From Acidimicrobiaceae bacterium (lineage in GTDB: Bacteria > Actinomycetota > Acidimicrobiia > Acidimicrobiales > Poriferisodalaceae): DNA of 64,000 bases. The position numbers and the translations under genes are program-made. Each line of letters starts with the position of its first letter. The first letter of the stretch is position 1. The notes beneath the pieces were generated by a model. The model searched no databases. It was not told where the DNA came from and worked only from the letters and a program-made list of their open reading frames with translations. The stretch lies in assembly GCA_002722565.1 (NCBI GenBank), contig PBMG01000012.1:1-64000 (forward strand), in the 5' to 3' direction. Shown here one piece after another: positions 18,762-35,201 of this stretch.

Positions 18762-18822
18762 TCTGCCTTGTGGATAGGCAGCACGTGAGATGATGCTAAG
18801 TCTGTCAGTGGAGGTAGAAGAG

Positions 18823-19332
18823 ATGGAACGTGACGAAGAGCGTCTACATATGTTGCGAGAAGCGATCTACCTGGCTGATGAAATTCTCTCGGAGGTGAAG
18901 GGTAACCCTCGGGCTCAGGTTGACTCAACTGTCCGAGCGAAGCTTGTTCATGGGCGGGATTGGAGGATGCGCTACCTAAAGCATCTGGAAGAAGGTGGGC
19001 CGATGCTGGAAGCTGGCGATGAGTGGTCTATGCATCAAGGTCATGATCTCGCCATTGAGTGGGGGTATGAGGTTTGGGATGAGAATCGAATCGGATTGCG
19101 ATGCCGAAGTTGTGACGATTGGGTTCAGTTGTATGACGTCGAGGAGAACTCGTCGTCGACGTTGACGGTCGCTGACCTGTATTTAGAGCACGAAACCCAC
19201 ACGGTCGTGTCTTGGCGTCGCGACCTAGATGCGGGAATTGAGTGTGTCACTTGCGGAGCAGTTGAGGAGAAAGGTTTCCCGCTGTTAGAAGCTCCGGTGA
19301 GTAGTTGGTTTGATGCTGTTTGGAATGGTTGA
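18823..19332 (+). CDS. Hypothetical protein with two CxxC pairs
   Basis: Unrecognised family. I chose ATG 18823 rather than the ATG 33 bp upstream because GGAGG sits 8 bp before it. The 169-residue product has an acidic helical N-terminus (about 1-70). The C-terminal part has RCRSCDDW and, about 50 residues later, ECVTCGAV. The two CxxC pairs look like the halves of a split zinc ribbon. No signal or membrane segment is seen. It is followed by tRNA-Leu on the opposite strand. The role is unknown; nucleic-acid or protein binding would fit a zinc ribbon. Confidence 0.72.
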   Translation: MERDEERLHMLREAIYLADEILSEVKGNPRAQVDSTVRAKLVHGRDWRMRYLKHLEEGGPMLEAGDEWSMHQGHDLAIEWGYEVWDENRIGLRCRSCDDWVQLYDVEENSSSTLTVADLYLEHETHTVVSWRRDLDAGIECVTCGAVEEKGFPLLEAPVSSWFDAVWNG

Positions 19333-19358
19333 TTGCGTTCAGTGAAGTGAAGAATTTG

Positions 19359-19440
19359 TGCGCCGGGTGGGACTCGAACCCACACGCCCGAAGACACCGG
19401 CACCTAAAGCCGGCGCGTCTGCCAGTTCCGCCACCGGCGC
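19359..19440 (-). tRNA. tRNA-Leu (anticodon TAG)
   Basis: The minus strand folds as a complete cloverleaf. The acceptor GCGCCGG pairs with CCGGCGC, the anticodon stem GCCGGC/GCCGGT encloses TTTAGGT with anticodon TAG (19404-19406), a long variable arm follows as expected for a class II tRNA, and the T arm contains GTTCGAGTC. The discriminator is A and CCA is not encoded. It reads CUA and probably other CUN leucine codons. Confidence 0.97.
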
Positions 19441-19551
19441 TCTAGTGACAACTTATCGGTCAAATGTGTCGAGTATTCAACTCGCGGACTTAAGAGCGCC
19501 AATGCCATCTGCTTTTAGTGCGAACTAAGGTCTGATGGAAGAGGAGGATGA

Positions 19552-20325
19552 ATGCTGAGATTGACCTTTCTGATGCGCCGCAAAGAAGGTATGACGAAAG
19601 AGGAGATGCAAAGGTATTGGCTTGAAGAACACGGCCCTCTCGTTGCTAGCTACTCGAAAACGTTGAACATGCTTCGTTACGTGCAGGTGCATTCCACCGA
19701 TGATGATCACAGCCGTCTTACCGGTCGTCGTGGAGAGATGGAAGAGCCTTACGACGGCGTGGCAGAGGTTTGGTGGGAGTCAAAGAACGCAATGTTTGAA
19801 GCAACGCGTTCTGGGGAAGGGCGAGAAGCGGATCGGGCTCTTCGAGACGATGAACAGCGCTTCATTGATTTGGAACGCTCTGTGGCTTGGTTTAATTACG
19901 AATATCCGCAGGTGAACCCGACACCAGAAAATGTTGTGGCGAGCGAGCGTTCAAGTTTGGTTAAGTTGTACTTCCCTCTGCGTCAGCTTGATTCTTTGAG
20001 CATGGAAGAAGCTCAGTGGTATTGGCGAACACACCATGGCCCGGTTATCCGGCGGCAAGCTCATGGATCGGGGATCGTTCGGTATCAACAGGTTCACCGA
20101 GATGAAGCAGAATTAACCGAGGGGATTAACCGCTCTCGCGGATCGAAAATAGAGCCATATCTTGGTCACGCTGAGGTGTGGATGGATCGGTCAGCGATGG
20201 GGAATCCGACTCCAGAAAATCGAGCTGCAGCTAAGCGTGCTTATGAGGATGAAGCAAATTTCATAGATTTTGAGCGGTCGACGATGTTTTTAGCGAAGGA
20301 ACACGTATTTATTGATCGACGTTAG
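19552..20325 (+). CDS. Tandem EthD-domain protein
   Basis: A 257-residue protein with two EthD-type dimeric alpha-beta-barrel domains. The first (about 1-120) has FLMRRKEGMTKEEMQRYWLEEHGPLV, the second (about 135-250) has LYFPLRQLDSLSMEEAQWYWRTHHGPVI; both keep the W-x3-HGP motif and a DLERS/DFERS end. EthD folds occur in alkane/ether degradation and polyketide cyclisation and often bind hydrophobic substrates. An AGGAGGATGA site precedes the ATG. Its last 17 bp overlap the convergent nitroreductase fusion. Confidence 0.88.
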   Translation: MLRLTFLMRRKEGMTKEEMQRYWLEEHGPLVASYSKTLNMLRYVQVHSTDDDHSRLTGRRGEMEEPYDGVAEVWWESKNAMFEATRSGEGREADRALRDDEQRFIDLERSVAWFNYEYPQVNPTPENVVASERSSLVKLYFPLRQLDSLSMEEAQWYWRTHHGPVIRRQAHGSGIVRYQQVHRDEAELTEGINRSRGSKIEPYLGHAEVWMDRSAMGNPTPENRAAAKRAYEDEANFIDFERSTMFLAKEHVFIDRR

Positions 20326-21490
20326 GTCCGTCGTCGACCAACGTCTTCACTCCTTCTACAACGCGTTGCATGTTTGATTTGTGGATTAAACGTCGTTCGA
20401 ATAGGACCGCGTTTTCTCTTGAGGGATCTTCTTGTGCTCTTGGTGCGGTGCCATTGTTCTCTTTCCCAATGACCATTGAAAATCGGAGTCGGCTTCCGGT
20501 GCCTTGTTCAGCTAAATCGAAGCGCCAAATAGCCCCTGGATTATCTGGATCTGTGATGCGCCATTCAAATACTTGGCGCTCAACCCATTCTGTAACAATG
20601 CATTCGGTCTCCCAGTCACGTAATCCCGGGATTGAGTTGCGACCGGTAAACCTTGACCCGACTCCTGTCTGGTCTTGGGAAACCCATTCTGCTCCGACGA
20701 ACTCGTTGGAAAAGAGTGCTGGCATGTTGATGTCAGAAATTACTTCCCAAACTTTTCTCGGCCTTGCATCGGTATCGATTTCTGTTACTACACCTGGTCC
20801 GTCTTGAATCCGAGCGGAGCCGTCAGCGCTCGGTAGTTCTCGGGTGAAGCCCCATTGGTCGAAATAGGTGATGTTCGACGCTGGTCGTCTGGGTGCAGGG
20901 GAGAATTCCTGTCCGATTGTGTATGCCACAGGGAAGCACACCAATGTGGTGACGCCATTGGGTATCCCTAATATTTTGCTGACTTCGGCTGTTTTGTTGT
21001 TCAACATTGTGGCGTAGGCAGTGCCTAGGCCACGCGATCGTAAAGCTAGGTTGAAGCTCCATGCTGAAGGAATAGCGCTATCAAAAAGTCCTGGGCGACC
21101 GCTGTTGTCATGGAGGCCCCAAATAGCGCAAATAACTAGAGCTGGTGCTTTCGAAAAATTGTCAACTAGGTATGCGCTTGAGCTAACAACATGCTCTTTT
21201 GGGTGGCCAGTGCCTTCCAATCTTCCTCTGGCTTGAAGGAATAGGGTCCCGACTTCGGCGTACAAGCTCCCTAGCTGGTCTTTGAGTCCTTGGTCGCGGA
21301 TTACGAGCCAACGCCTACTCGCGTCGTTGCCGCCGGTAGGTGCCTGTTCGGCTAAGTCAATGCATTCGAAAATTACGTCATCGGTGACGTCGCGAGCGAA
21401 GTCCAAACGCTTACGAACGGCTCGTGTTGTAGTTAGTAAGCGGTCAATTTGTTTGAGGTCAAAACCAGATTCTGAAAGGTCACGATTCAT
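20309..21490 (-). CDS. Nitroreductase-SRPBCC fusion protein
   Basis: 393 residues with two domains. Residues 15-220 are an FMN nitroreductase: TTRAVRKRLDF at the phosphate-binding start, EQAPTGGNDASRRWLVI, and the GLGTAYATMLNN and LVCFPVAYTIG segments. Residues 235-385 are a START-like SRPBCC domain with ARPRKVWEVISDINMPA, VGSRFTGRN and a long C-terminal helix. Fusing a flavin reductase or dehydrogenase to a hydrophobic-ligand pocket suggests one enzyme that binds and reduces a bulky lipophilic molecule. That is inference. The next gene upstream is an MFS carrier, 34 bp away on the same strand. Confidence 0.88.
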   Translation of the reverse strand: MNRDLSESGFDLKQIDRLLTTTRAVRKRLDFARDVTDDVIFECIDLAEQAPTGGNDASRRWLVIRDQGLKDQLGSLYAEVGTLFLQARGRLEGTGHPKEHVVSSSAYLVDNFSKAPALVICAIWGLHDNSGRPGLFDSAIPSAWSFNLALRSRGLGTAYATMLNNKTAEVSKILGIPNGVTTLVCFPVAYTIGQEFSPAPRRPASNITYFDQWGFTRELPSADGSARIQDGPGVVTEIDTDARPRKVWEVISDINMPALFSNEFVGAEWVSQDQTGVGSRFTGRNSIPGLRDWETECIVTEWVERQVFEWRITDPDNPGAIWRFDLAEQGTGSRLRFSMVIGKENNGTAPRAQEDPSRENAVLFERRLIHKSNMQRVVEGVKTLVDDGPNVDQ

Positions 21491-21524
21491 GTAATGAATT
21501 TAGGCTGATAGCCCTTCAGTGTGC

Positions 21525-22772
21525 TTAATGGGGGCGTACGCAAAAAACTGATGGAGGAACCAAGGGCTGATTAGGCGGTGGTGTTGGGAGAGGTTTCGGT
21601 GTTGATGTTGGGAGTTTAGGTAGCCGAAGTGCCCCAACAATTCCTAATAAAGCACAAGCAGATGAGAGCAACAACACCCAAAGGAAAGTGGATGTCCAGT
21701 CGGCTAAGACGCCACCAATCTGCGGCGAAACCATTTGTGCTACACCGAAAGCCAAAGTAGCTGCGCTGAAACCGGGACCGTAATCCTCAGCTGACGCGTT
21801 TTCGACGAAGTACATGGTCAGGGTTACTGGAATTGAGGCGAATATCATCCCAATCACTATTGACGCCCCAAGAGTAGGCAGTACCCAACCAGGCAGGATG
21901 CTGAGTACGAGAACGGTCCAAAGACCGAAGGCGCATCCGAGGGTTGCTCGGGTTCCGAAGGTGGCGACTGACTTAGCGACAATTGGACCGCCGAACACCA
22001 TCCCCAGCCCGATCAAGGTGAATGACAAAGAAGCGTTGCTGGCCGACCAGCCGTTGTCATCTTCTAGCCGGCTACTCATGAACGCTAGAACGAGGAGATA
22101 CATAAAACCGAATGTGGTGTACATGGCGGTGATCGGTTTCCACCCAGGTACACGACGTAGCGCATCAAACCCGCCCACACTGCCTTTAGGCGAGAGCTGA
22201 TCTTGAGCGTGTCTAACTATGGCTACGGTTCCGACTGCTACTAGAAGTCCGATTGTTGCTTGGACTACGTAAACATTGCGCCAGCCTTCATCTCCCCATA
22301 CCCGTCGAACCCAGCCAGCGAGTTGGCTGGTGAACACGATGCTTAGGGCCATGCCCGATGAAAGAAGTCCGATGGCCGTGCCGCGTTTTTCGGGTGGGAA
22401 TGCAGCGCTTGCAACAACAGGGGTCGGAATCCAAACCCATGCTCCGCCAAAGCCACAGCAGAACATCCCAAACATCAAAACAGCAGCATTAGGAGCAAGT
22501 GCCGAGACAACCTGCCCGCCTACGGCAATGAGTAGTCCAACCTTCATGACCGTCAAGAGTTTGATGCGCGAGGCAGCTATAGCTACAGCCAAGGTGCCGA
22601 TTAGATAGGCAGCAACGTTTGCGGTAGCAATTGAACCAGCGACCGTATTTGATAGTCCTAGATCAGAGCGCATTGCAGGTAATACGACACCTAGCGTAAA
22701 CCTGCCAAAACCTTGAGCTACACCGGCGCTCGCTGCTGCAAACGCAACAGCTATCCAGGCGCGAGCGGTCAC
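21525..22772 (-). CDS. Major facilitator superfamily transporter
   Basis: A 415-residue inner-membrane protein with about twelve hydrophobic spans. The first helix contains GVAQGFGRFTLGVVLP, typical of the YbfB/CynX-like MFS group, and the cytosolic loop has GTAIGLLSSGMA. The C-terminus is proline-rich. A perfect 19-bp palindrome begins 7 bp upstream of its start. It is probably co-transcribed with the downstream nitroreductase fusion (34 bp). The transported substrate is unknown. Confidence 0.9.
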   Translation of the reverse strand: MTARAWIAVAFAAASAGVAQGFGRFTLGVVLPAMRSDLGLSNTVAGSIATANVAAYLIGTLAVAIAASRIKLLTVMKVGLLIAVGGQVVSALAPNAAVLMFGMFCCGFGGAWVWIPTPVVASAAFPPEKRGTAIGLLSSGMALSIVFTSQLAGWVRRVWGDEGWRNVYVVQATIGLLVAVGTVAIVRHAQDQLSPKGSVGGFDALRRVPGWKPITAMYTTFGFMYLLVLAFMSSRLEDDNGWSASNASLSFTLIGLGMVFGGPIVAKSVATFGTRATLGCAFGLWTVLVLSILPGWVLPTLGASIVIGMIFASIPVTLTMYFVENASAEDYGPGFSAATLAFGVAQMVSPQIGGVLADWTSTFLWVLLLSSACALLGIVGALRLPKLPTSTPKPLPTPPPNQPLVPPSVFCVRPH

Positions 22773-22779
22773 CCTAAGA

Positions 22780-22798
22780 GACTATCAATTTGATAGTC
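22780..22798. promoter_or_regulatory. Perfect 19-bp palindrome, likely operator of the MFS/BVMO divergent region
   Basis: GACTATCAA and TTGATAGTC flank a single T. It lies 7 bp upstream of the MFS start and 121 bp upstream of the BVMO start. The ATCAA/TTGAT core is the kind bound by MarR- or GntR-type dimers. It has no T-run and is too short in GC to act as a terminator. Confidence 0.65.
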
Positions 22799-22919
22799 AC
22801 AGGCAGGTCAGAGTGGCGGGCAAAGCGCCGTATGGGTGTGATTTCAATCGAGCCCGATCGAAGCAGCACGACCCCATCTTGATTGCCTAACATCACTAGG
22901 GTCCGAACAGGAGAGCAAA

Positions 22920-24773
22920 ATGGCGATCAGTATCGATCCCGAAACAGGCCTCAAAATTTTTGACACTCGAGCCGGTAAGGCAAGTGACAAAATTCAAGGT
23001 AAGGGTTATCAGGTCAACTCTGATACCAGTCTGAAAACGCTTCCCGAAGTTTCTCAGGCAGCAAAGTTCGATGCTGTTGAGCAGGCGAAATATCGGGAAT
23101 TCAAAGAGCAACGGCGAGGTGCTGCTGATTACATGACGATGGAGGGGGAATTTTCTAAGTATCTCGAAGACCACTATTCCGACTCTCCTGTTGAACGCGA
23201 TGCCTTAACTGACGACTGCGAAATAGTCGTGATCGGCGCAGGTTTCGCGGGGCTCCTTCTTTGGTACCGACTTAAAGAAGCAGGTTTCCAAGATGTCAGG
23301 TTCTGCGAAAAAGGTGGTGACGTAGGGGGCACTTGGTATTGGAATCGCTACCCAGGTATCGCATGCGATGTTGAGTCCTACAGCTACCTGCCTCTCTTAG
23401 AGGAAATGGAATATTTCCCTACAATGAAGTTTGCTTCAGGTTTTGAGATTCTTGAGTATTGCCAGTCAATGGCCACCAAGTTCGGGTTCTATGACAAATG
23501 TCTCTTCCATACCACGGTCGAGCGAACTGACTGGGATGAAGAAACAAGACGCTGGACTGTGCATACAGACCGCGGAGATGCAATGCGCTCTCGTTACGTT
23601 ATTTTGGCTAATGGCATTTTGACAACTCCCAAACTCGCTCGGATTGAGGGAATGGAACGATTCGAAGGGGAGTCATTCCACACCTCGCGTTGGCGTTATG
23701 ACGTGGATCTTGAGGGAAAGAGGGTTGGGATTATCGGTACGGGCGCTACATCAGTCCAAGCTGTTCCGGAGCTCGCAAAAATTGTCGGCGATCTGTACGT
23801 GTTTCAGCGCACACCTTCGTCAATTGACGTACGCGACCAGCGAGTTACAGGAGCAGATGAAATCGAATCCTGGAAAGAAGAACCGGGCTGGGCAAGAGCC
23901 CGAAGAAAGCGATTTTCAAGGATTTCAGCCGGCCGCTCAGCGATCCAAGCAAACGACGACTACCTGGCAGGGAAAGTTGATGATTTCAAGCAACGCAAAG
24001 AACACGATCGGAAACTCACACCCGAGGAAATGGTTGAAAAACAGTTGGATTCAAATTTCCGCATCATGGAGCAGATACGGGCCCGAGTCGATGAGATAGT
24101 CGAAGATCCAAAAACAGCGGAGGCGTTAAAGCCCTACTACCCATATGGCTGCAAGCGACCCACATTCCACGATGAGTATTTGCCTACGTTCAACTTGCCG
24201 CATGTCCACTTAGTAGATACCGCGCCCATGGGTGTGACGAATATCAACCAAAACGGAGTAGTTCACGAAGGCCAGGAATACCCACTCGATGTGCTGATTT
24301 ATGCCACTGGCTTCCAGTGGATGGCGACGTCAACCTTCAACATGGTCACTGGTAGGGGTGGCCAAACGATGAAAGATAAGTGGGAAACTGAAGGGACCAA
24401 GACCTTCCTAGGGATCCATAGCAATGGGTTCCCGAATTTGTTCATCATGACTGGACCGCAAGGCGGAGGCGGAAGCTTCAACTTCACCGACGCGATAGAG
24501 ACGCATGCGGATTACATCGTCTGGATGCTTTCGATGATGCGAGAAGAAGGGCATGAAGTCGTCGACATCACTGAAGAAGCAGAAATGAACTATGCCGAAC
24601 ACTGTCGACAGGCTGACATAGCTACGGCACCACTTCGAGATTGCCTGTCCTATTACAACGGTCATGGCGATTCGGAACCAGGAAGTCTTGCCTATTACGG
24701 GGGAGGTAATTGGCACAAGTTTCGTGTTCGAGCTCAAGAAACCCTTGACACCTACGCGTTTGAATCCTCCTAA
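22920..24773 (+). CDS. Baeyer-Villiger-type flavin monooxygenase
   Basis: A 617-residue flavoprotein that inserts oxygen next to a ketone using NADPH and O2. It has the first dinucleotide motif VVIGAGFAG (about 104-112), GGTWYWNRYPG typical of BVMOs, the BVMO fingerprint FEGESFHTSRW (F-x-G-x3-H-x3-W) near residue 250, a second dinucleotide motif GIIGTGATSVQ, and the GPQGGGGSFNFTD region late in the chain. The N-terminus carries about 100 extra residues, as in the larger cyclic-ketone enzymes. An AGGAGAGC site precedes the ATG. It converges with an LLM oxidoreductase gene. Confidence 0.93.
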   Translation: MAISIDPETGLKIFDTRAGKASDKIQGKGYQVNSDTSLKTLPEVSQAAKFDAVEQAKYREFKEQRRGAADYMTMEGEFSKYLEDHYSDSPVERDALTDDCEIVVIGAGFAGLLLWYRLKEAGFQDVRFCEKGGDVGGTWYWNRYPGIACDVESYSYLPLLEEMEYFPTMKFASGFEILEYCQSMATKFGFYDKCLFHTTVERTDWDEETRRWTVHTDRGDAMRSRYVILANGILTTPKLARIEGMERFEGESFHTSRWRYDVDLEGKRVGIIGTGATSVQAVPELAKIVGDLYVFQRTPSSIDVRDQRVTGADEIESWKEEPGWARARRKRFSRISAGRSAIQANDDYLAGKVDDFKQRKEHDRKLTPEEMVEKQLDSNFRIMEQIRARVDEIVEDPKTAEALKPYYPYGCKRPTFHDEYLPTFNLPHVHLVDTAPMGVTNINQNGVVHEGQEYPLDVLIYATGFQWMATSTFNMVTGRGGQTMKDKWETEGTKTFLGIHSNGFPNLFIMTGPQGGGGSFNFTDAIETHADYIVWMLSMMREEGHEVVDITEEAEMNYAEHCRQADIATAPLRDCLSYYNGHGDSEPGSLAYYGGGNWHKFRVRAQETLDTYAFESS

Positions 24774-24777
24774 TTCG

Positions 24778-25776
24778 CTACTTCAGAAGCGGTATTACCT
24801 CTGTTGCAAGACGTTCAAGGTTTCTTGCCATGAATTCGGGGTCAAGTCCTGGTGGTAAGCCCGAAGTGGCTATGTCTGTGATTCCGTATAGCTCAATGAA
24901 ATCTGTGAGTTCCTTAACGACTTCGTCGGCGGTTCCTATGAGCACGTTCTGAGGTATGCCGCCTTCGCTGCCCCAGCCGTAGTCATCGGGGGTCTCGGCC
25001 ATAAATGTTCCGTAAACGCCCATGCGAAAACGTTCAGCCTCTCGTATAGCTGGCCAGTCTTTGTCGAAGTCATCTGTTACGTAGACAGATCTAATAATCC
25101 CTACTCGATAATCGTTGGGATCTCCGCCGTCGGCTTTGACTGCATCTCTCCATGGGTCAAGGACGTCTTCTCTTCGTCCTTGTGGCAGCAAGTTCGTTCC
25201 GAAGCGAGCTGCTCGCAGTGCTCCGGGTTCTTTCATAGCGGCTATCCACAGGGGCGGACCTCCGACCTGCACTGGTTTCGGGTAAACGTTTATGTTTGAT
25301 AGTTGATAGCGCTTGCCCGTAAAACTAAATGGCTCATCTGCCCAACAAAGTCGGAGTATCTCGATGGCTTCGTCGGTCATAGAAACTCGGTTCTTGAGTG
25401 GAACCCCAAATGCTTCGAATTCTTTGGGCACGTAACCCATCCCAATTCCGAATTCCATCCGACCTTCAGAGATGTGATCTAGGACAGCTAGTTCTTCGGC
25501 GAGTCTCACCGGGTGATACAGGGGCAGCAACGCTATGTCGTTGGAGATCCGAATATTTCTAGTCCGAGCTGCTATTGCCCCAGCTAATGGTTGAAAGGCT
25601 GGGAGATAACCGTCCTCTAGAAAGTGGTGTTCCGTAAACCAAACGTGGTCAAACCCAAGTTCATCGGCCAGGACCGCTTGTTCGATTGTTGCTGAGTAAA
25701 CGTCAGACATGGACAAATCGCCGCCAGGTATGTGGCGACAGTCATACATAACGCCGAATCGAAGTGGTTGCGGCAT
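24778..25776 (-). CDS. Luciferase-like (LLM class) flavin-dependent monooxygenase
   Basis: A 332-residue bacterial-luciferase-type barrel. It has GFDHVWFTEHHFLEDGYLP, the RIRISNDIALLPLYHPVRLAEE block and a GRMEFGIGMGYVPKEFEAFG motif, all typical of the FMN-dependent alkanal monooxygenase-like branch. It lies back-to-back with the selenoprotein gene (64 bp) and tail-to-tail with the BVMO. The substrate is unknown. The intergenic space has a short CGGTC/GACCG inverted repeat. Confidence 0.9.
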   Translation of the reverse strand: MPQPLRFGVMYDCRHIPGGDLSMSDVYSATIEQAVLADELGFDHVWFTEHHFLEDGYLPAFQPLAGAIAARTRNIRISNDIALLPLYHPVRLAEELAVLDHISEGRMEFGIGMGYVPKEFEAFGVPLKNRVSMTDEAIEILRLCWADEPFSFTGKRYQLSNINVYPKPVQVGGPPLWIAAMKEPGALRAARFGTNLLPQGRREDVLDPWRDAVKADGGDPNDYRVGIIRSVYVTDDFDKDWPAIREAERFRMGVYGTFMAETPDDYGWGSEGGIPQNVLIGTADEVVKELTDFIELYGITDIATSGLPPGLDPEFMARNLERLATEVIPLLK

Positions 25777-25840
25777 TTGTCTGCTCCCTTATGGCCGGTC
25801 ACAGGACCGTAGTCGTTTCTGACGGGCTAAGTTTTACCGT

Positions 25841-27001
25841 ATGCAGATCGAACGTGATACTCGTGGGGCTGAGTTGGCGCCCAATCAATACGAAGACGCC
25901 GAGGGATACATAGCTCCCTTGCCGGCCGGATCTGGGCCCAGATCCAACCCTTTGGGAGCGTTTCCTACGGGACCGGAAGTTGGAGAACGCCTACCTGACG
26001 TTGTAGCAGTTGATTCAGACGGCGTAACTCTTGACCTGCACGAGGATCGCGAAGGGAAACCTGTGGTCTTGGTCTTTACCCGATCGGCTGTTTGGTGACC
26101 GCCATGTCGCACCCAGCTGGTCGAGCTGGAAAAGGGAATGTCTGACTTCGAAGCTGCGGGGGCCAAGTTGTATGTACTGAGTTACGACGAAGTTGATGCG
26201 CTCGCCGACTATAAAAAGGCCCACAGGGCTAGTTTCACGATGCTCTCGGATTCTGATAGCGAGGTCATACGGTCGTTTGGGATTCTTAATACAACTATCG
26301 CTGAGGATGATCACCCTTGGTATGGGATTCCGTACCCCGGTGTCTATGTGACTAATTCTGAGGGAATTGTTACCCAAAAATTCTTTGAAAATAATTTCAC
26401 CGTTCGGCCGGGAGCTGAACAGTTGGTTGCCGCTGTAAAGGGAGAAGAGTTCACTCTTGCCGAAAGACCTGTAACAGGTGAACAAGTAAACGTTGAGATT
26501 GAATTCGACGGGGCTGACCTGCCGATCGGTATCACTAGGCAAATAGTGGCCCGTTTTTCGGTACCCGAAGGTATGCACCTCTATCAAGAGCCAGTGCCCG
26601 AAGGGCTAGTTGCGGCATCGATTGAGCTAGATGGAGACGTGGAAGGAATACTGCCTTACACGATGATTGCTCCTGATACACGTCCTCTGACTTTAGGTAC
26701 CGATGGACACACGCTCGAGGTCTACGAAGGAAACGTGATCTTGCGTTTGCCGATCGCCCAGAATGGTAGGGCCATCACGAAAGATGATGATGGCCGCTGG
26801 GTCACGATTAGCGGCAAGGTTCGTTGGCAGGCTTGCGACTCTGAGGCATGTTTGCTTCCTGAAGAAGAGTCGTTCAATTTTCGTGTACCAGCGGCTTTTA
26901 CTGTCATGGCGGACATGGGGCCTGGCGAGGGGCGTGTCCCTTCGATGAATGGGGCTACGCACTTTAAAAAGATGACAGATCGGCGCAAGACCGAGTCTTG
27001 A
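25841..27001 (+). CDS. Selenocysteine peroxiredoxin-like protein fused to a DsbD-alpha-like domain
   Basis: A 386-residue product if the in-frame TGA at 26096-26098 is read as selenocysteine (Sec86). Codons before and after are in the same frame. The interrupted peptide is FTRSAVW-U-PPCRTQLVELE, which matches the FxRSADWCPxCKxQL active site of AhpC/TSA-type thiol peroxidases, with Sec in place of the peroxidatic Cys and Cys89 completing UxxC. Downstream, residues 100-200 continue the thioredoxin fold (GAKLYVLSYD, FTMLSDSDSEV). Residues about 214-350 resemble the N-terminal DsbD domain, with WQACDSEACLLPEE (Cys332, Cys337). A perfect SECIS-like hairpin follows the TGA. No signal peptide is seen. 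Read as two genes, it would have lost its active site. Confidence 0.9.
26096..26129 (+). promoter_or_regulatory. Bacterial SECIS element directly after the UGA codon
   Basis: After the TGA, a 14-nt spacer leads into a perfect stem, CCAGCT (26113-26118) and AGCTGG (26124-26129), closing the loop GGTCG. Bacterial SECIS elements sit within the coding region just 3' of the UGA, and the E. coli fdhF element has a GGUC core in its apical loop about 18 nt after the UGA. Here the GGTC begins 20 nt after the TGA. SelB would bind it to deliver Sec-tRNA. selA, selB and selC are not in this window. Confidence 0.85.
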
Positions 27002-27059
27002 TCGGGACTCGAATAATCGTTCAGTAAAATAATGAACCCGATTGACATAGGCTAGGCAA

Positions 27060-27932
27060 ATGGCGAACCTCGTTTATTTCGATGCTGATGCAGATAGCGA
27101 TGATGTTCTTACAACTCTTCGTGAGGACGGTGCGTGTGTGCTTGTGGATGTAATGAGCGATGAGCTCCGGTCGCGCGTTGACAGTGAACTCCGACCGTTT
27201 ATTGCTTCAACTCCTACAGGGCGTGACGATTTCAGTGGGAGGCTCACAGCTCGGACCGGAGCGCTGGTGGCTCGTAGTGAAGCCGCTCGAGAGTTAGTGA
27301 TGCATCCGACTACGACTGATCTTGCCCGCCAGTTCCTGGAACCTTATACCGACAAAATCCAATTACATCTCACTCAAATCATCAACATTCAGCCTGGTCA
27401 GGGCGCTCAACCTCGCCACCGTGATCGACTCGCATGGGGCGGCTACGTGCCCGCTGAAATTGAGCCTCAGTTCAACACGATTTGGGCATTGACGGATTTC
27501 ACCGAAGAAAATGGAGCGACTCGGGTCGTACCGGGATCTGCTGGGTGGCCTGATGATCGTCGAGCTTTGGATGAGGAAACAAGTCAGGCGGTAATGACTG
27601 CGGGGTCTGTTTTGCTCTACTCAGGGTCAGTTATTCATGGAGGCGGTAAGAACTGTTCTGATTCTGACCGGACTGGTGTAAACATCACCTACTGCCTGGG
27701 ATGGTTGCGTACTGAAGAGAATCAGTATCTGTCATGTCCGCCAGAGATAGCTAAGAGCCTTGATCATGATTTACAAGAGATGCTTGGCTACACAATGGGA
27801 AGTTACGCCCTGGGTTACTACAGCGACCCGAGCGGTGTCAGCGAAATTAATGATTTGCGTCCACCTGAGTTCATTCTTGACCGCCGGCCGAGAGATAAAG
27901 CATCTAGTTCCGCTCTCATTGCCGACTATTAA
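27060..27932 (+). CDS. Phytanoyl-CoA dioxygenase (PhyH) family protein
   Basis: A 290-residue Fe(II)/2-oxoglutarate oxygenase. The HRDRLAWGG segment supplies the His-x-Asp metal ligands, ENGATRVVPGSAGW is the usual PhyH strand, and SGSVIHGGGKN supplies the distal His, with Arg (DRTGVNITY) for 2-oxoglutarate. The likely role is hydroxylation of a small organic or acyl substrate in the cytosol. It starts 58 bp after the selenoprotein gene on the same strand and overlaps the convergent MFS gene by 4 bp. Confidence 0.92.
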   Translation: MANLVYFDADADSDDVLTTLREDGACVLVDVMSDELRSRVDSELRPFIASTPTGRDDFSGRLTARTGALVARSEAARELVMHPTTTDLARQFLEPYTDKIQLHLTQIINIQPGQGAQPRHRDRLAWGGYVPAEIEPQFNTIWALTDFTEENGATRVVPGSAGWPDDRRALDEETSQAVMTAGSVLLYSGSVIHGGGKNCSDSDRTGVNITYCLGWLRTEENQYLSCPPEIAKSLDHDLQEMLGYTMGSYALGYYSDPSGVSEINDLRPPEFILDRRPRDKASSSALIADY

Positions 27933-29083
27933 ATCGACTTCGACTCTGAATTTCGTTCCGAGAGGGGTGGAGGGTCGAGTAGCCAACTGCTTGACAGCAG
28001 AACCAACATGGTTATCGCTCCGATAAGGAAAGCTGGACCCGGTCCGAGCCACGAGTAGAGCGGCGCTGCAGTTAAAGCGCCAACCATTGATGCGGCTGAA
28101 CCCATGGCTTCCCCGAGTCCTTGAGCGGCTGCGGCGTCATCTAACGGTGCCGCGTCGGAAACGGCAGCCTGAGATCCAGGGGATTGCACTGCCTCCATCA
28201 TTCCGTGGGGCATCGCTGCGATGAAGAGAATGGGGACGGAAGATATCCATCCGTAGGAGGCCATTAATGGGACTGTTGCGAGCGCGGAAAGCAATGATGT
28301 GGCGCGGGGGCTGAATCGATCTGATAACGAGCCTGCCCACCTAGCTATTAGCAACATCGGTAGGGCAAAACCAGTTAAGGACAAGGTTACGATCATGGTT
28401 GACGCGCCCAAATTATCCATATGAGGCGCCCAAAGAGGTTCGAAAACTCCGATCGAATACCTGAAGGAGATCACGACCAATAACGCAGCGACCATTTGGC
28501 GGCTGCGTACCAAGCGTCGCAAAACTCTTTTCTGAGTTTGATCACTATTTTGTGTAGCTGGTATTTCTAACCGGTATATCGATAAATACGTTGCAATGGT
28601 CAGTGCACCGAAGAGAAGGAACGGTGTTCGAACGTTAAAGGCGACGGTCAAAGCACCAGCAATTGGAGGCCCAAAGACAAAACCGGCGATGTAAGAACCA
28701 TAAAATGAGCCGAGTTGTCGACCTTGGTTGGAGCCTGCGTTAACGATAATAAAACGTCTGCTGGCAGGAACAATCACTCCGATTCCTGCTCCGAGTATCA
28801 ATCGAGCAAGGATGAACTGCCACAACTGATCTGCGATCCCGAACCACAACAACCCTAAAGCTGAGGCAATGACTCCTAGTCGCAATAGCAGGCCTCCGTA
28901 GCCTCTGTCGGCGTATCGGGAGAGCCAGAGCTGAGTCACCAACGCGCCCACGAATGCAGCACCAGCGATCCATCCTAAGTTTCGCTCAGCTATTCCATAG
29001 GCATTGTGTATTTCGGCGAGAAGCGCAAAAACTGATGAAACACCAGCCATAGTGATCGCGGCAACTAGATAAAGACTTCGCAT
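27929..29083 (-). CDS. Major facilitator superfamily transporter
   Basis: A 384-residue integral membrane protein with about twelve hydrophobic spans. It has the MFS loop motif LSRYADRGYGG between spans 2 and 3 and a matching LSDRFSPRATS between spans 8 and 9. It lies 11 bp after the NTF2-like gene, so it is the last gene of a Rieske oxygenase - NTF2-like - MFS transcript. This suggests it imports the oxygenase substrate or exports a product. The substrate is unknown. Confidence 0.9.
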   Translation of the reverse strand: MRSLYLVAAITMAGVSSVFALLAEIHNAYGIAERNLGWIAGAAFVGALVTQLWLSRYADRGYGGLLLRLGVIASALGLLWFGIADQLWQFILARLILGAGIGVIVPASRRFIIVNAGSNQGRQLGSFYGSYIAGFVFGPPIAGALTVAFNVRTPFLLFGALTIATYLSIYRLEIPATQNSDQTQKRVLRRLVRSRQMVAALLVVISFRYSIGVFEPLWAPHMDNLGASTMIVTLSLTGFALPMLLIARWAGSLSDRFSPRATSLLSALATVPLMASYGWISSVPILFIAAMPHGMMEAVQSPGSQAAVSDAAPLDDAAAAQGLGEAMGSAASMVGALTAAPLYSWLGPGPAFLIGAITMLVLLSSSWLLDPPPLSERNSESKSI

Positions 29084-29094
29084 GTTCTAGATGC

Positions 29095-29526
29095 CTAGGT
29101 GTTGTAGCCAGGTGGAGGGCCAAAGGCGCCGCTGAGATCCGGTGGCCCTTGATAAAGCCAAGTCAATGTTCTGCTGGAGAATTTCCAACCTTCAGACCCC
29201 TTCTGATAGGTGTCATCGTAATGGCCTAGATAGAACAAGGATTTCCCGGATTTAGCTTTAGCGAACTCACATATATACCAGCGTCCCTCGCCGCTGTCCC
29301 CACTTGTAGTTGCCGTGCCGTTGAAGGTCATCTGATTCACTGCTTCGAACAGTTCCATCGAGGTCTGCATGGCTTGTCTTAGCGCGTCGTGTCCCTGAAC
29401 TGGCCCACGACCAATGTCCCATACGGCGTCGCTGGTCCAAAGTTCAAGCCAACTCTTCTGATCGTTCTTGCAGACGTGATCACAATAAGAGTGGACAAGG
29501 TGTCTTATCGACTCGATCTCATTCAT
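29095..29526 (-). CDS. NTF2-like (SnoaL/ring-hydroxylating dioxygenase beta-type) protein
   Basis: A 143-residue cone-shaped NTF2-fold protein. It has the N-terminal helix SIRHLVHSYCDHVCKNDQKS, ELWTSDAVWDIG, the GHDALRQAMQT helix and a long YLGHYDDTY strand. The family includes beta subunits of Rieske dioxygenases and SnoaL-like cyclases or dehydratases. It sits 10 bp downstream of the Rieske alpha-subunit gene, so a beta-subunit or auxiliary role is the best guess. Confidence 0.87.
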   Translation of the reverse strand: MNEIESIRHLVHSYCDHVCKNDQKSWLELWTSDAVWDIGRGPVQGHDALRQAMQTSMELFEAVNQMTFNGTATTSGDSGEGRWYICEFAKAKSGKSLFYLGHYDDTYQKGSEGWKFSSRTLTWLYQGPPDLSGAFGPPPGYNT

Positions 29527-29536
29527 TGAGGTGAGG

Positions 29537-30919
29537 TTACTTTGGGCCAGCTAGGTAGTGTTCGAGAGTTTCGTGAAAATGCCGTATGCGGCTCTCTTGG
29601 TAAGCCGCCAAGGTGACGGCCCCTCTTTTGCTGGCCTGTAGGCCTCGTTGAATGCGAATCAGATTGTCGGTGTCCTGGTCGACAACCATCCCTGCGCCTC
29701 CGAGCGCTGCAGCATCGGTCCAACTGTCGTTGAGTCCCAGTTTCGTTATAGCGCCGGGTGGTGGGGGTGGTCCTTCGTCGGGATTGGCGAACAGCAACAT
29801 GATTTCCATGATTGAGCTATGTGGGTCGTTGCCGTTAGGCCGAAAGCGGTAGCAGATCGGCACGCCTTGACCTCCCCAAGGCACCAGATTTGGAAAGAGA
29901 AAGTACTCGATGGCGTCAAGCGCTTCAGATGTTGAAAGGTGTGACATGTCCGCGCGAGCCGAGATACCAAGTTTCTCTCTGGCCCGGTTGGCGAGAAGGT
30001 CCCGCACGCGATCACCTTCCTGGGGAATGATCGGATCACCTCCATGGAAAGGAACATCTCTCTGCATTTTTCGGATCGTTTCCTCTGGCGGAACTTCTCG
30101 GAGGTTAGGGCTGGGCATTCCTTCGAGCGTGATCATCCTGTTCACGTGCCGGGAGCCCGGGAAGATGTCGTACTGGGTGTTCGCATCGGCTACGTAGGCG
30201 GCTGTTTGAGGGTGGGTTACACCAATGTGGTAGCTCTCGATGAAGGCTTCCAGTGCCAACTTCCAGTTACAGGGCATTATCTTTTCTACATGAGCTGCCT
30301 TCCAGCGGTCATCCAAAGGAAAATCTCGAAATTCGTCGTCTAGGACCTCTATGTAGGTTTCAAATGGCTCACATTCTTCGTCGAAATTTACAAAAACAAA
30401 TCCGCCCCAGAAAGCGATCTTTGTTTTTGGTAAACAGAACTCGTCAGGTTTGATGTCTGGGAAGTCCCAGCTATTGGGTATGTCGACTAACACACCTTCA
30501 AGGTCCCAAGTGAATCCGTGAAAGGGACACCTGAAGCGTTGAATATTGCCGCCCGTGGTTCGTAGCTGCGTTCCACGATGCAGACACGAATTGATGTAGG
30601 CACAGATTTCGGTTGGGCCTTCGCCCGTTCGCACGACTATGACTGATTCGGTAGCAACTTCGTAGACAATGTGATCTCCGACATTGGCTAACTCTTCGAG
30701 CCGGCACGCCATTTGCCAGACCTTTCGCCAGACGTGCTCGACCTCCAAGTCATGCCACTCTTGGCTGAGGTACCGATCTGCAGATATCTCTCGGTTGTCG
30801 CTAAATTCTGGTGGGTATTCTCGAAGTAGAACTTCAGGTGGCCCAATGGCATCCGTGCTGAGAACGTCCTGAACAGTAGGTCCAGGCGCACGCCCCTTAT
30901 GAGTCCCCTTCATGGTCAT
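29537..30919 (-). CDS. Rieske-type ring-hydroxylating dioxygenase alpha subunit
   Basis: A 460-residue oxygenase. The Rieske [2Fe-2S] ligands are in NSCLHRG (Cys-x-His) and FRCPFHGF (Cys-x2-His), at about residues 107-130. The catalytic non-heme iron site contains ESYHIGVTHPQ with two histidines; the third, acidic ligand lies further down. It needs a reductase that is not encoded next to it. Together with the NTF2-like gene and MFS gene it forms a three-gene unit for uptake and oxidation of an unknown, probably aromatic or terpenoid, substrate. Confidence 0.93.
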   Translation of the reverse strand: MTMKGTHKGRAPGPTVQDVLSTDAIGPPEVLLREYPPEFSDNREISADRYLSQEWHDLEVEHVWRKVWQMACRLEELANVGDHIVYEVATESVIVVRTGEGPTEICAYINSCLHRGTQLRTTGGNIQRFRCPFHGFTWDLEGVLVDIPNSWDFPDIKPDEFCLPKTKIAFWGGFVFVNFDEECEPFETYIEVLDDEFRDFPLDDRWKAAHVEKIMPCNWKLALEAFIESYHIGVTHPQTAAYVADANTQYDIFPGSRHVNRMITLEGMPSPNLREVPPEETIRKMQRDVPFHGGDPIIPQEGDRVRDLLANRAREKLGISARADMSHLSTSEALDAIEYFLFPNLVPWGGQGVPICYRFRPNGNDPHSSIMEIMLLFANPDEGPPPPPGAITKLGLNDSWTDAAALGGAGMVVDQDTDNLIRIQRGLQASKRGAVTLAAYQESRIRHFHETLEHYLAGPK

Positions 30920-30957
30920 AAGTTAGCTTTAGACAGTAAACGGTGAGGCCAAAATCG

Positions 30958-31467
30958 TTAACGTCTCATATTGAGGGATGCAGCGTGTTCGTCTGAGTCT
31001 TCTGCTAGGGGACCTCCGTAGATTTCCATTTCGAACCAATCGACGAATAAAGGATCTCTGGCTGGCTTCCATAGGGACCAAGCTGCCTTCGCGCCAGGGC
31101 TTTGCATCAGTCCTAACTTGAGAAGGTTCACGCGCATGTCGAGTTGGTCCTGAGTGGCTAAACCGTTCTGTTGCTGTTCGTAGGTGTCGAATAGATCGAC
31201 CAGCATGGTGTTGGTCCATAGTGTGACTCGCCACTGGTCTTCGCTTGTCAGTTCCTTTGACGAAAAATCTTTCGCTAGAAAGGAAACGAACTCTTCATTT
31301 TGGGTGGATGAAAGGTAACGCTCGTAAAGTCGGTTAGTCAGAGTGTGGCTGAATTGCGCTTTGGTGAGCTTTACGTTTAGTTGAGCTTCTCTAGCCAAAT
31401 AAATTAGTGAGAGGGGCAAAAGAGCACCCTCGATTATTTGGGCGATGATGCCTAAGTCATCTAACAC
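30958..31467 (-). CDS. Hypothetical membrane-anchored protein
   Basis: 169 residues with one N-terminal hydrophobic helix (about 6-24, IIAQIIEGALLPLSLIYLA), followed by a helical, mostly polar domain rich in Leu, Thr, Glu and Trp. Proteins of this shape (one anchor, then an all-helical cytosolic part with WxxTLW-like motifs) recur in marine bacteria, but I know no function. It has no close operon partner: 38 bp separate it from the Rieske gene on the same strand, so co-transcription is possible. Confidence 0.75.
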   Translation of the reverse strand: MLDDLGIIAQIIEGALLPLSLIYLAREAQLNVKLTKAQFSHTLTNRLYERYLSSTQNEEFVSFLAKDFSSKELTSEDQWRVTLWTNTMLVDLFDTYEQQQNGLATQDQLDMRVNLLKLGLMQSPGAKAAWSLWKPARDPLFVDWFEMEIYGGPLAEDSDEHAASLNMRR

Positions 31468-31682
31468 GGTTATCTCCTTTTCTTGGACTCCAATGTCCTA
31501 GTGAGTGGTTAGTCATAGTCGAGTAAGTAACTGTTGCTTAACTTTGGGTTGAATTGTCGGGGTTAGGCCCTGTTTTCCAAGCAGCGGGTTACGATCATTT
31601 TGATCCGATAGCGGAGACACAATCCAATATTGGTTCTGAAGCTTTTGTCTTATTGAGCACTCCCTAGTGGCTGTGATCTACG

Positions 31683-32636
31683 GTGCACGACATGACTTCA
31701 CATCCTTATTACGACCCCGAGGTGCGAGCGTATTTAGAGTCTCAACCATCTTTGGGAACGGTTAATTCTGACACCCTCGAAAGCGCAAGAAACTCTCGAC
31801 TTCTTCGGAACGAAGGAGTCCTGCTTTCAGATGAGGTTGAGCGTGTCGATCACTACATCCCCGGGCTCGATGGTCATGAAGTAAGAGTTCGCGTCCATAG
31901 CGTGAAGCGCTCTGGAGAGCTGAAACCAGCGTTGTATTGGACTCATGGCGGTGGGTATGTCCTAGGTGCTCCTGAACAGGACGATGATCGATTCGATCGG
32001 TGGTGTCAGCGCTTTGGTTTGGTGGGGGCAGCTGTGCAGTATCGCTTAGCGCCTGAACATCCGTACCCGAGCGGCCTAGAAGATTCCTATGCCGGCTTGA
32101 AGTGGTTGAAGGAGCATGGAGAGTCAGTGGGCGTTGACGTGAACCGAATCGGTATCGGCGGTCCGAGTGCTGGTGGTGGTATGGCTGCAGCATTAGCTCT
32201 GCTGGTTCGAGATCGGGGAGAATTCGAGATCGACTATCAGCTCCTCATATACCCGATGATTGATGACACTCGAACGACTACAACGGCCGGATGGAACGTA
32301 CCTATATGGGACCCGGAATCGAATTATTTTGGATGGAGTTCGTATCTCGGTGATCTATTCGGGACCGAAGATGTTCCTAGCCACGCGGCCCCCTCTAGGG
32401 AATCGGACCTTAGTAACTTGCCGACCACGTTCATCATGACGGGGAGCCTAGACGGATTTGCAGACGAAGATATTGAGTACGCAAAGAGACTCAATCATGC
32501 GGGGGTACCTGTGGAGCTTCATGTTTATCCTGGCGCACCGCACGGTTTTGACGGTTTTGCTGCGCAAACCGCAGTAGCGAAACAGGCCAGATCTGATATC
32601 AACAATTTCCTAGCGCGAATGCTTGAGTCTGATTAG
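31683..32636 (+). CDS. Alpha/beta hydrolase of the hormone-sensitive lipase type
   Basis: A 317-residue esterase of family IV. The oxyanion motif HGGGYVLG is near residue 87, the nucleophile elbow GPSAGGG (G-x-S-x-G) near 160, the Asp lies in the FIMTGSLDGFADED segment and the His in APHGFDG. The start is GTG 31683 or the ATG three codons later. It cleaves short acyl esters; the true substrate is unknown. It converges with the following oxidoreductase gene with 3 bp between stops. The 215 bp before it hold no gene. Confidence 0.93.
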   Translation: MHDMTSHPYYDPEVRAYLESQPSLGTVNSDTLESARNSRLLRNEGVLLSDEVERVDHYIPGLDGHEVRVRVHSVKRSGELKPALYWTHGGGYVLGAPEQDDDRFDRWCQRFGLVGAAVQYRLAPEHPYPSGLEDSYAGLKWLKEHGESVGVDVNRIGIGGPSAGGGMAAALALLVRDRGEFEIDYQLLIYPMIDDTRTTTTAGWNVPIWDPESNYFGWSSYLGDLFGTEDVPSHAAPSRESDLSNLPTTFIMTGSLDGFADEDIEYAKRLNHAGVPVELHVYPGAPHGFDGFAAQTAVAKQARSDINNFLARMLESD

Positions 32637-32639
32637 AGG

Positions 32640-33851
32640 TCAAGACTTTACGTAGAAAGATTCTCTTGCTTGAGATGGAGGAACAATAGGAATTTCCTCA
32701 TCGCTGAGTGGTGCCATCCATTGTTTTCTTTCAAGGGCGGCTTCAATAAAAGGTGCAAGTTCGGTGTTTTTATCCTCGACTCGCTGATCCCTATGAGGAG
32801 CGAAATGAGGAAGGACTTCTTCGCCAAACAGTTCGAGACTTTCGCAGATGTCTTCGTGTCGATTCTTGCCGCCTTGCTGCAGAAATATGACTTGATCGAC
32901 GCCCGCGGACTCGAATTCTTTTACCAGGGCTGTGTAATCCTCGGGAGTTCCGATACCTGGAGCCCCGATAGTCGGTAAATCAGGTCCCCTGAGTTCTTCG
33001 TATTCCCCCCATAGATTGCTGCGTCCGGGCCGTGTTTCGTTGGCTACGAGTGCGTTGACCGCATACCTGAAGAATTGAAACCCGTCGATCCCACGGCGCA
33101 TCGCCTCCTCGGCGTCTTTGTGGAGACTGAATCCAGCCACCATCGCTAAGTTCGCGTTTACGGTGTGTCCTAAGGGAACGCATTCTTCGCTTTTGATGAT
33201 GTCGTAGTAGGTGTTTGCCCAATCCTTTGCTTCGTCAGGGTCTACGAAACTAAATGCGAGTGCCCCTAATCCATTCCGAGCGGCCACCTCAATGGTTGAG
33301 CGATTCGTGCAGGCAATCCACATTGGGGGGTGAGGCTTCTGCATAGGTTTCGGGACAACGTTGCGGCATGGCATTGAGAAGCCTTCACCCTCGAAACCTG
33401 GGTAGGGTTCCATAACCATCATGTTTGCGACTTGTTCGGCGGCTTCGAGTGATAGTTCTCTCTTGCGCCGGGCATTAATTTCGTAACCGCGAAGCTCTAA
33501 ACGAGTGGCGCCTTCTCCGATACCGAATTCGACGCGTCCTCTCGATATGAGATCCAACATAGCGACAGTTTCCGCAGTACGAGACGGATGGTTGTAGTTC
33601 GGAATTACCTGGCGGATGCCTAAACCAATTCTTATCCGTTCGGTCTTTGCCGCTAGGGAGGCTAGGAACACGTCTGATGCTGAGCAATGGGAATACTCCT
33701 CAAGAAAATGATGCTCGACCGCCCACGCGTGATCGATGCCGATCTTGTCGGCTAAAACGATTTGTTCCGTCGCTTCTTCGATGAGACGTAACTCTGCTTC
33801 TTCGTCCCATGGTTTTGGCAATTGCAACTCGTAGAGCATTCCGAACTTCAT
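32640..33851 (-). CDS. Luciferase-like (LLM class) flavin-dependent monooxygenase
   Basis: A 403-residue member, longer than the other two in the window. It has KIGIDHAWAVEHHFLEEYSH, RIRIGLGIRQVIPNYNHPSRTAE and GRVEFGIGEGATRLELRGYE, typical of the FMN alkanal-monooxygenase-like branch. The extra length is mostly a C-terminal tail after the HEDICESLELFGEEVLPHF helix. The substrate is unknown. It faces away from the thioesterase gene. Confidence 0.9.
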   Translation of the reverse strand: MKFGMLYELQLPKPWDEEAELRLIEEATEQIVLADKIGIDHAWAVEHHFLEEYSHCSASDVFLASLAAKTERIRIGLGIRQVIPNYNHPSRTAETVAMLDLISRGRVEFGIGEGATRLELRGYEINARRKRELSLEAAEQVANMMVMEPYPGFEGEGFSMPCRNVVPKPMQKPHPPMWIACTNRSTIEVAARNGLGALAFSFVDPDEAKDWANTYYDIIKSEECVPLGHTVNANLAMVAGFSLHKDAEEAMRRGIDGFQFFRYAVNALVANETRPGRSNLWGEYEELRGPDLPTIGAPGIGTPEDYTALVKEFESAGVDQVIFLQQGGKNRHEDICESLELFGEEVLPHFAPHRDQRVEDKNTELAPFIEAALERKQWMAPLSDEEIPIVPPSQARESFYVKS

Positions 33852-33935
33852 ATTTACTCCTCTGCTGAAGCCAACCTGACGCTACAAGGCTGATCCTAAG
33901 ACATTCAGGTCTTTGATGAGACCCCAAGAGTGCTT

Positions 33936-34727
33936 TCAGGATCTAGAAAGTAAAAGGCTCGTTGATAATCCCTTAGCGACTAAGGATTGTTCCTGCCAGA
34001 CTTCTGTTTCAACGGTCGCTAAACCACCTGAGATTTCGCGACATATAGCGATGGCAACTAAATCTTGGCGTGTGGCTGGTCCCGAGAATCGAAGCGACAG
34101 GTCCGGGTTGGGGTGGGGGACCCACGTACCCCTAGGAAGAACAGCATCAACGGGTGGACCGACTGAAAGGTCAGCGGCTAGACAAGCACCCTCGCTACCG
34201 TCAGTGGTTGTTTCCCATGGGACTGTGACCAATGTCGCGATAGAAGCACCGACGCGAGATGCCCTCGGACGGGCGGTGTCTATGATCGGAACCTCAACTC
34301 CTTCTGGTTTTCGCCAAGGTTTAGAATTTTCGGACAAGTCAGAGGGTGGAGGTCCTAAGAGACCGCTATCTCGGTTAGCTGCTTGGATATCGGTTCTTAG
34401 GGATTCGGGAGCAGCGAAGACTACGCGTGCTTCGGTGGTTGGGGTACCTGAATCGTCGCTGAATTCAACTCGAAGAATTGTGATGCTTCGTCCAGATGAA
34501 AGAGTTGTGACTTGGGCTGTTGCTTGTGTAGTTGATAAACCGCGAAGGAAATGTATATCGAGGCCAGCTGCGATCCGGTTCGGCTCGACCGTGCGTCCTA
34601 AAGCAATGGCTGCGGCTGCTAAGGCGCCCCCGGTGACGCCTCCAAAAGCTCCGTGAATTTCGGCGGGCATATGTAGGTGCCACGCTTGATTCTTCGAAGA
34701 GGCGTCAAAGTACTCCAAAGGTGTCAT
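33936..34727 (-). CDS. Acyl-CoA thioesterase-like double hot-dog protein
   Basis: A 263-residue protein with two hot-dog halves of the TesB/thioesterase-like type. The first half has AEIHGAFGGVTGGALAAAAIALG and AGLDIHFLRGLSTTQATAQV. The second half ends in SLRFSGPATRQDLVAIAICREISGGLATVETEVWQEQ, where the usual late aspartate/glutamine region lies. It probably hydrolyses acyl-CoA. It is on the minus strand and divergent from the DUF1330-like gene. Confidence 0.8.
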   Translation of the reverse strand: MTPLEYFDASSKNQAWHLHMPAEIHGAFGGVTGGALAAAAIALGRTVEPNRIAAGLDIHFLRGLSTTQATAQVTTLSSGRSITILRVEFSDDSGTPTTEARVVFAAPESLRTDIQAANRDSGLLGPPPSDLSENSKPWRKPEGVEVPIIDTARPRASRVGASIATLVTVPWETTTDGSEGACLAADLSVGPPVDAVLPRGTWVPHPNPDLSLRFSGPATRQDLVAIAICREISGGLATVETEVWQEQSLVAKGLSTSLLLSRS

Positions 34728-34814
34728 AAAGATAGCCCTTCACCCTAATCGGATATATCTAGAGGGTAGGCCTCGTTGCTCTTCGGTCCGAACTGTTCGG
34801 GCTAGCTTGATTAC

Positions 34815-35201
34815 ATGGAAGGTAATAACACTTCAGCGGCGCACCAAATGGCGCGATTGGAGAAGTTGGCTGCCGCCTCCAAAGAGCTGCCGCTGGTGAT
34901 GTTGAATATCAATAAATATCGCCCGGAAGTCGATTTTCCTGGAGGGGAAAGTTACACCGCATATATGGAGTCAATTAGTTATTCGGTTGGAGAGGTTGGA
35001 GGTTCTGTTTTGTGGCGCTCACCGGTCCGCGGTTCGGTAGTGGGCGACCTTGAAGGTTTTCACGAAGTTCTAGCAGTGTGGTATCCAAGCCATAAAGCAT
35101 TCCTTGAGTTACCTAACGCAGATGGCGCTAGAGAAATGTTTCGCTACAGGAGGACATGCGTGGAGGAAGCCCACATTCTTGAATTGCCGGACATTAGTTA
35201 G
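34815..35201 (+). CDS. DUF1330-like small protein
   Basis: A 128-residue protein with a dimeric alpha-beta-barrel layout: PLVMLNINKYRP, GGESYTAYMESI, then GGSVLWRSPVRG, VLAVWYPSHKAFLEL (the Y-P-S-x-x-A-F signature of DUF1330) and a last helix. An N-terminal helical extension of about 25 residues precedes the fold. The function of the family is unknown. After it, 125 bp without a gene lead to the convergent enoyl-CoA hydratase. Confidence 0.85.
   Translation: MEGNNTSAAHQMARLEKLAAASKELPLVMLNINKYRPEVDFPGGESYTAYMESISYSVGEVGGSVLWRSPVRGSVVGDLEGFHEVLAVWYPSHKAFLELPNADGAREMFRYRRTCVEEAHILELPDIS

Follow-up and report, generated by a model that had tools for sequence, protein, structure and literature searches.

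A predicted Prx-like UxxC selenoprotein with a C-terminal DsbD_N domain in Acidimicrobiia

Introduction

Prx-like selenoproteins with a UxxC active site have been known since 2006-2008 (PMC1794560, PMC2398784) and are also present in a 2026 review (PMC13188914). They have the AhpC/TSA fold (PF00578; GOS "Prx-like 1/3"; "Redoxin family protein" in the review), carry Sec at the first position of UxxC, occur in marine bacteria and have Cys homologues of the CxxC type. One of them, GOS Prx-like 3, was described as fused to "Unknown_3", where three Cys are conserved, a CxxC among them (PMC2398784). DsbD-like parts are also known in selenoproteins, as in TsoB, a rhodanese/DsbD fusion-like protein (NF045694; PMC13188914). 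In DsbD itself, the N-terminal domain (nDsbD) has an Ig fold and passes electrons from cDsbD to DsbC, DsbG and CcmG via C103/C109 (PMC7347389). No AhpC/TSA-DsbD_N selenoprotein is found by name in the 2026 review (PMC13188914).

Here we describe a gene from an Acidimicrobiaceae bacterium (GCA_002722565.1), found in a window of 64,000 nucleotides (contig PBMG01000012.1, positions 1 to 64,000), whose predicted product combines both parts. It shares with the Prx-like UxxC proteins the fold, the position of Sec, the marine occurrence and the existence of CxxC homologues, but the entries of that class are listed under one domain, while this protein adds DsbD_N. Going by its description, GOS Prx-like 3 with its "Unknown_3" differs from the present protein, in which the added part is DsbD_N with two Cys as CX4C. 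The HEU0032618.1 entry of the review may be of the same family. Proteins of the SelL/PRXL2 type (NF040769, AhpC-TSA_2) have a comparable CxxC/UxxU-type active site and local similarity to the N-terminal domain (E=2.3e-12, with matches in 28/29 family members); however, the protein scores 46.9 bits against a cut-off of 120, and SelL is UxxU whereas this is UxxC plus a DsbD_N domain. TsoB differs in having a rhodanese domain and a UxxxxU with two Sec, and NF045694 is not matched.

Results

Gene structure and genomic context

The gene occupies positions 25841..27001 of the forward strand, from an ATG to a terminal TGA (26999-27001) that is an ordinary stop, replaced by TAA or TAG in some relatives. 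It contains a single in-frame TGA (26096..26098), and reading through it as U gives a protein of 386 aa including Sec86, located in a W-U-P-P-C motif. Standard ORF calling breaks the gene into pieces of 85 aa and 287 aa, which a preliminary description of this DNA, made from the sequence alone, had joined into one selenoprotein; its coordinates, frame, Sec codon, motif and Cys332/Cys337 pair are all as found here.

The assembly has 2.47 Mb in 22 contigs, and among named relatives it is closest to MAGs of Acidimicrobiaceae/Acidimicrobiales, a large part of which are marine. Upstream of the gene are a flavin monooxygenase (22920-24773) and a luciferase-like monooxygenase (24778-25776), and downstream a phytanoyl-CoA dioxygenase-like gene (27060-27932). 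The flanking gene order is conserved across close Acidimicrobiia relatives, with no evident functional link between these neighbors and the protein. Window positions 16935-34935 are repeated in another contig (C22:40000-58000, L071). These 18 kb, selenoprotein gene included, differ by a single mismatch, probably as a result of assembly redundancy or of two near-identical strains.

Conservation of the in-frame TGA

Codon 86 is TGA in 18/18 close orthologues from independent MAGs and GTDB genomes (best segments 70-89% identical), which share the start and, when intact, have an otherwise open frame around the TGA. The same is true for 30/30 two-domain relatives inspected in samples of the order and class (Acidimicrobiia), and the W-x-P-x-C codon is TGA in 5/5 additional ones. 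Since all independent relatives have the same codon, this TGA is neither a chance event nor a sequencing error; sequencing error and pseudogenization are ruled out by the conservation in the 18 orthologues and 30 two-domain relatives. None of the close relatives has a codon that is neither Cys nor Sec at this position, a case that had been proposed as contrary evidence. Single-domain relatives of the N-terminal domain have mostly TGC or TGT at codon 86, so that Cys homologues do align there, as the preliminary description had suggested checking.

The two ORFs given by automatic calling could still be taken as two separate genes, or as a pseudogene, with TGA86 as a true stop and translation restarting at ATG 26138. 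We consider this extremely improbable, because codon 86 is never TAA, TAG or a sense codon in any two-domain relative, the break would fall inside the active-site motif, and Met100 is not conserved in distant members. Changes between this gene and its relatives are mostly synonymous both 5' and 3' of the TGA, as in purifying selection on both sides, and the covariation of the hairpin described below also argues against two genes. A single gene is thus the reading followed here.

SECIS hairpin and Sec machinery

A candidate bacterial SECIS hairpin is located at 26113..26129 (+), with a 6-bp stem CCAGCU/AGCUGG (26113-26118 with 26124-26129) and the apical loop GGUCG (26119-26123). It is part of the MFE fold of the region 3' of the TGA, and the folding energy of the region is no better than that of shuffled sequences (z = -0.05). 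There was no match in Rfam, which is no surprise because bSECIS elements do not form one single family. Over 30 sequences, 99.4% of the stem cells are paired and 16 cells are changed on both sides (C-G/G-C/U-A at the base, G-C to A-U and C-G to U-A). This covariation score was reached by 0/500 shuffles, and slid versions of the stem are only 1-39% paired. Within codons 1-200, synonymous diversity is lowest at codons 91-98 (0/100,000 random samples as low), and this stretch of strongest synonymous constraint coincides with the stem. The spacing of 20 nt from UGA to loop and the G-rich loop start agree with the published bSECIS model, in which the loop lies 16-37 nt from the UGA and has G at its first positions (PMC13188914).

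The genes selA, selB, selC and selD, whose search had been recommended, are all present in this genome. selA adjoins selB, and a tRNA-Sec with UCA anticodon is on the same contig. SelD has its own in-frame TGA, in HGAG-U-ACK (C1:65406-66341, minus strand, L070), and is thus a selenoprotein too. Taken together, the conserved TGA, the hairpin and the sel genes agree with the Sec assignment made from the sequence alone, and the sequence strongly supports that the organism's SelA/SelB/SelC/SelD decode UGA86 as Sec via this hairpin.

The preliminary description considered Sec to be uncommon in actinobacteria of this kind, which does not hold for this order: Sec use is common in it, since SelA was found in 180/298 genomes. 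Among the 23 order genomes bearing the family, 22 have SelA (hypergeometric P = 9e-5, without correction for kinship), and the remaining one is an 83%-complete assembly of about 520 contigs.

The N-terminal domain is of the UxxC type

Residues 47-186 (25979..26398, +) form an AhpC/TSA-Redoxin domain of thioredoxin fold according to Pfam and Foldseek, with U86, C89 and P166, the latter at the cis-Pro position. PF00578 (AhpC-TSA) matches residues 47-179 above the cut-off (E=5.9e-26), followed by PF08534 (E=4.6e-16). The AlphaFold model of the whole protein (pLDDT 87, pTM 0.87) matched Bcp4/PrxQ and also ResA-like structures through this domain. These results sustain the AhpC/TSA-type fold claimed before. 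All 29 aligned family members have both AhpC-TSA and DsbD_N matches, and U86, P87, C89, P166, C332 and C337 are invariant among them, with Q330 and P340 also among the few invariant columns.

The same description placed Sec at the peroxidatic Cys of a peroxiredoxin, which is not what the alignments indicate. In the profile alignments, residue 86 is matched by Thr/Ser in AhpE/PrxQ-type proteins, whose peroxidatic Cys lines up with Cys89. Thus, the Thr/Ser position of the canonical PxxxT/SxxC motif is taken by Sec86, and FxRS stands in place of the Pro-containing loop of peroxiredoxins. The catalytic Arg is also lacking, its place being the cis-Pro position: TxxC peroxiredoxins have Arg at 166 where the alignment reaches it, whereas the family has the invariant Pro166. 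Single-domain CxxC relatives combine Cys at 86 with Pro at 166. The Arg/cis-Pro exchange is a known mark dividing peroxiredoxins from thioredoxins (PMC2757866). With Sec86 at the Thr/Ser position and Pro166 instead of Arg, the domain therefore resembles a thioredoxin-type, Prx-like UxxC oxidoreductase more than a peroxiredoxin, and an AhpC/TSA-Redoxin domain with UxxC is what defines the Prx-like UxxC thiol:disulfide oxidoreductases.

The protein had also been called a Sec peroxidase. In such an enzyme, Sec86 would reduce H2O2 or organic peroxides, or Cys89 would be peroxidatic and Sec86 resolving, with regeneration by the nDsbD-like domain. It is true that PrxQ/Bcp and AhpE peroxiredoxins, similar in overall fold, are the best sequence and fold (PDB) matches of the N-terminal domain, and that peroxides may be substrates of some CxxC or UxxC Prx-like proteins. 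Peroxidase activity is possible given the local PrxQ/Bcp similarity. We find a Sec-dependent peroxidase unlikely as the main function, since PxxxTxxC and the active-site Arg are absent, and the lack of Thr/Ser at 86 and the Pro at 166 are both common to the CxxC thiol oxidoreductase-like relatives.

The C-terminal domain resembles nDsbD

Residues 213-354 (26477..26902, +) correspond to an nDsbD domain with a predicted Ig-like fold, as had been proposed for this part of the protein, and Pfam, profile and fold searches agree on it. PF11412 (DsbD_N) matches residues 232-346 with 33.3 bits against a cut-off of 25. In the profile comparison with PDB, DsbD was the top match with a weak E value (0.19), and C332 (26834-26836) and C337 (26849-26851) are aligned opposite its C103/C109 pair. 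Modelled alone, the domain has pLDDT 93 and its top 15 Foldseek matches in PDB are all nDsbD/ScsB; phmmer with this domain alone gave no useful match in PDB. The Ig-like fold and the Cys pair are shared with nDsbD (DsbD-alpha) and the N-domain of ScsB, but the spacing is CX4C instead of the CX5C of nDsbD, one residue fewer.

Unlike DsbD, the gene does not encode the 8-TM membrane domain, cDsbD or a signal for periplasmic export, and the thioredoxin-fold domain lies N-terminal of the nDsbD part. Hydrophobicity revealed no signal peptide or membrane segment in any member. Since they lack a hydrophobic N-terminus and membrane segments, a cytoplasmic location is probable, an unusual one for an nDsbD-type domain.

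This cytoplasm-like setting, and the fact that DsbD_N occurs in the genome solely in this gene (in the two near-identical contigs) and in one paralogue, could fit a binding or structural domain in which the Cys pair forms a stable disulfide and takes no part in a redox relay. Such a role is quite improbable, because the few invariant columns include C332, C337, Q330 and P340, which lie within the nDsbD active-site alignment, and a disulfide with a structural role would be atypical of the reducing cytoplasm. A redox role of the pair is the one we prefer.

Distribution of the family

The paralogue (C9:1680-2798, minus strand, L066/L069) has the same architecture, with W-U-P-P-C encoded with TGA and CX4C, and its SECIS stem CAGUU/AACUG is compensatory to that of the window copy. 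Of the 298 order genomes, 23 contain two-domain relatives, and other families of the class have them too; in the family alignment, they are 25-86% identical to the protein studied here. No two-domain Cys form was found in 396 Actinomycetota, 298 order genomes or 395 class genomes, nor did plasmids contain a two-domain Cys homologue covering 80% of the query. The chromosomes covered by this search are those of Actinomycetota, plus one close-relative scan of genome contigs beyond them.

Single-domain Prx-like loci with a TGA-encoded RGDW-U-PYC or RGFA-U-PFC were also observed, five in other Actinomycetota (L106, L107, L108, L112 and L125) and one more at L055. They are likely further selenoprotein genes that were split or missed.

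Discussion

We suggest, with a probability of about 0.7, that this gene encodes a Prx-like UxxC thiol:disulfide oxidoreductase selenoprotein, C-terminally fused to an nDsbD-like dithiol domain that is its likely electron partner. While Prx-like UxxC selenoproteins are already known, we have not found the obligate-Sec fusion to DsbD-N described.

As nDsbD serves thioredoxin-fold partners, U86-C89 and C332-C337 may exchange electrons within one chain, and the analogy suggests that this occurs inside a single polypeptide. An intramolecular path of this kind had already been raised from the sequence, and the fused nDsbD-type domain and the invariant redox residues from which we infer it are in agreement. 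We also infer the direction of electron flow, the substrate and the final donor. Sec86 would attack an oxidized substrate, either a disulfide or perhaps an electrophile of another kind such as a peroxide, and Cys89 would then close a Se-S bond with Sec86. This bond would be reduced by Cys337/Cys332 of the nDsbD-like domain, docking in the way that nDsbD does with cDsbD, DsbC and CcmG, all partners of thioredoxin fold, and the resulting Cys332-Cys337 disulfide would be reduced by a cytoplasmic donor. Unlike that of DsbD, the relay would most likely be cytoplasmic. More tentatively, and with somewhat less than even confidence, it could be a self-contained cytoplasmic relay, in which a Sec domain tied to its nDsbD reductant never reverted to Cys and acts on a substrate outside those of known selenoproteins.

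Because gene callers split the protein, the annotations of many Acidimicrobiia, both marine and not, are likely to show this redox enzyme as two fragments. The nDsbD-type domain is known as a periplasmic hub, and this family places it in a seemingly cytoplasmic protein. The absence of a two-domain Cys form from the sampled genomes makes the family a useful case for the question of when Sec is irreplaceable. To our knowledge, the reductants of the Prx-like UxxC selenoprotein class are mostly unknown, and the fusion points straight to a redox partner, an idea that is testable in a single polypeptide.
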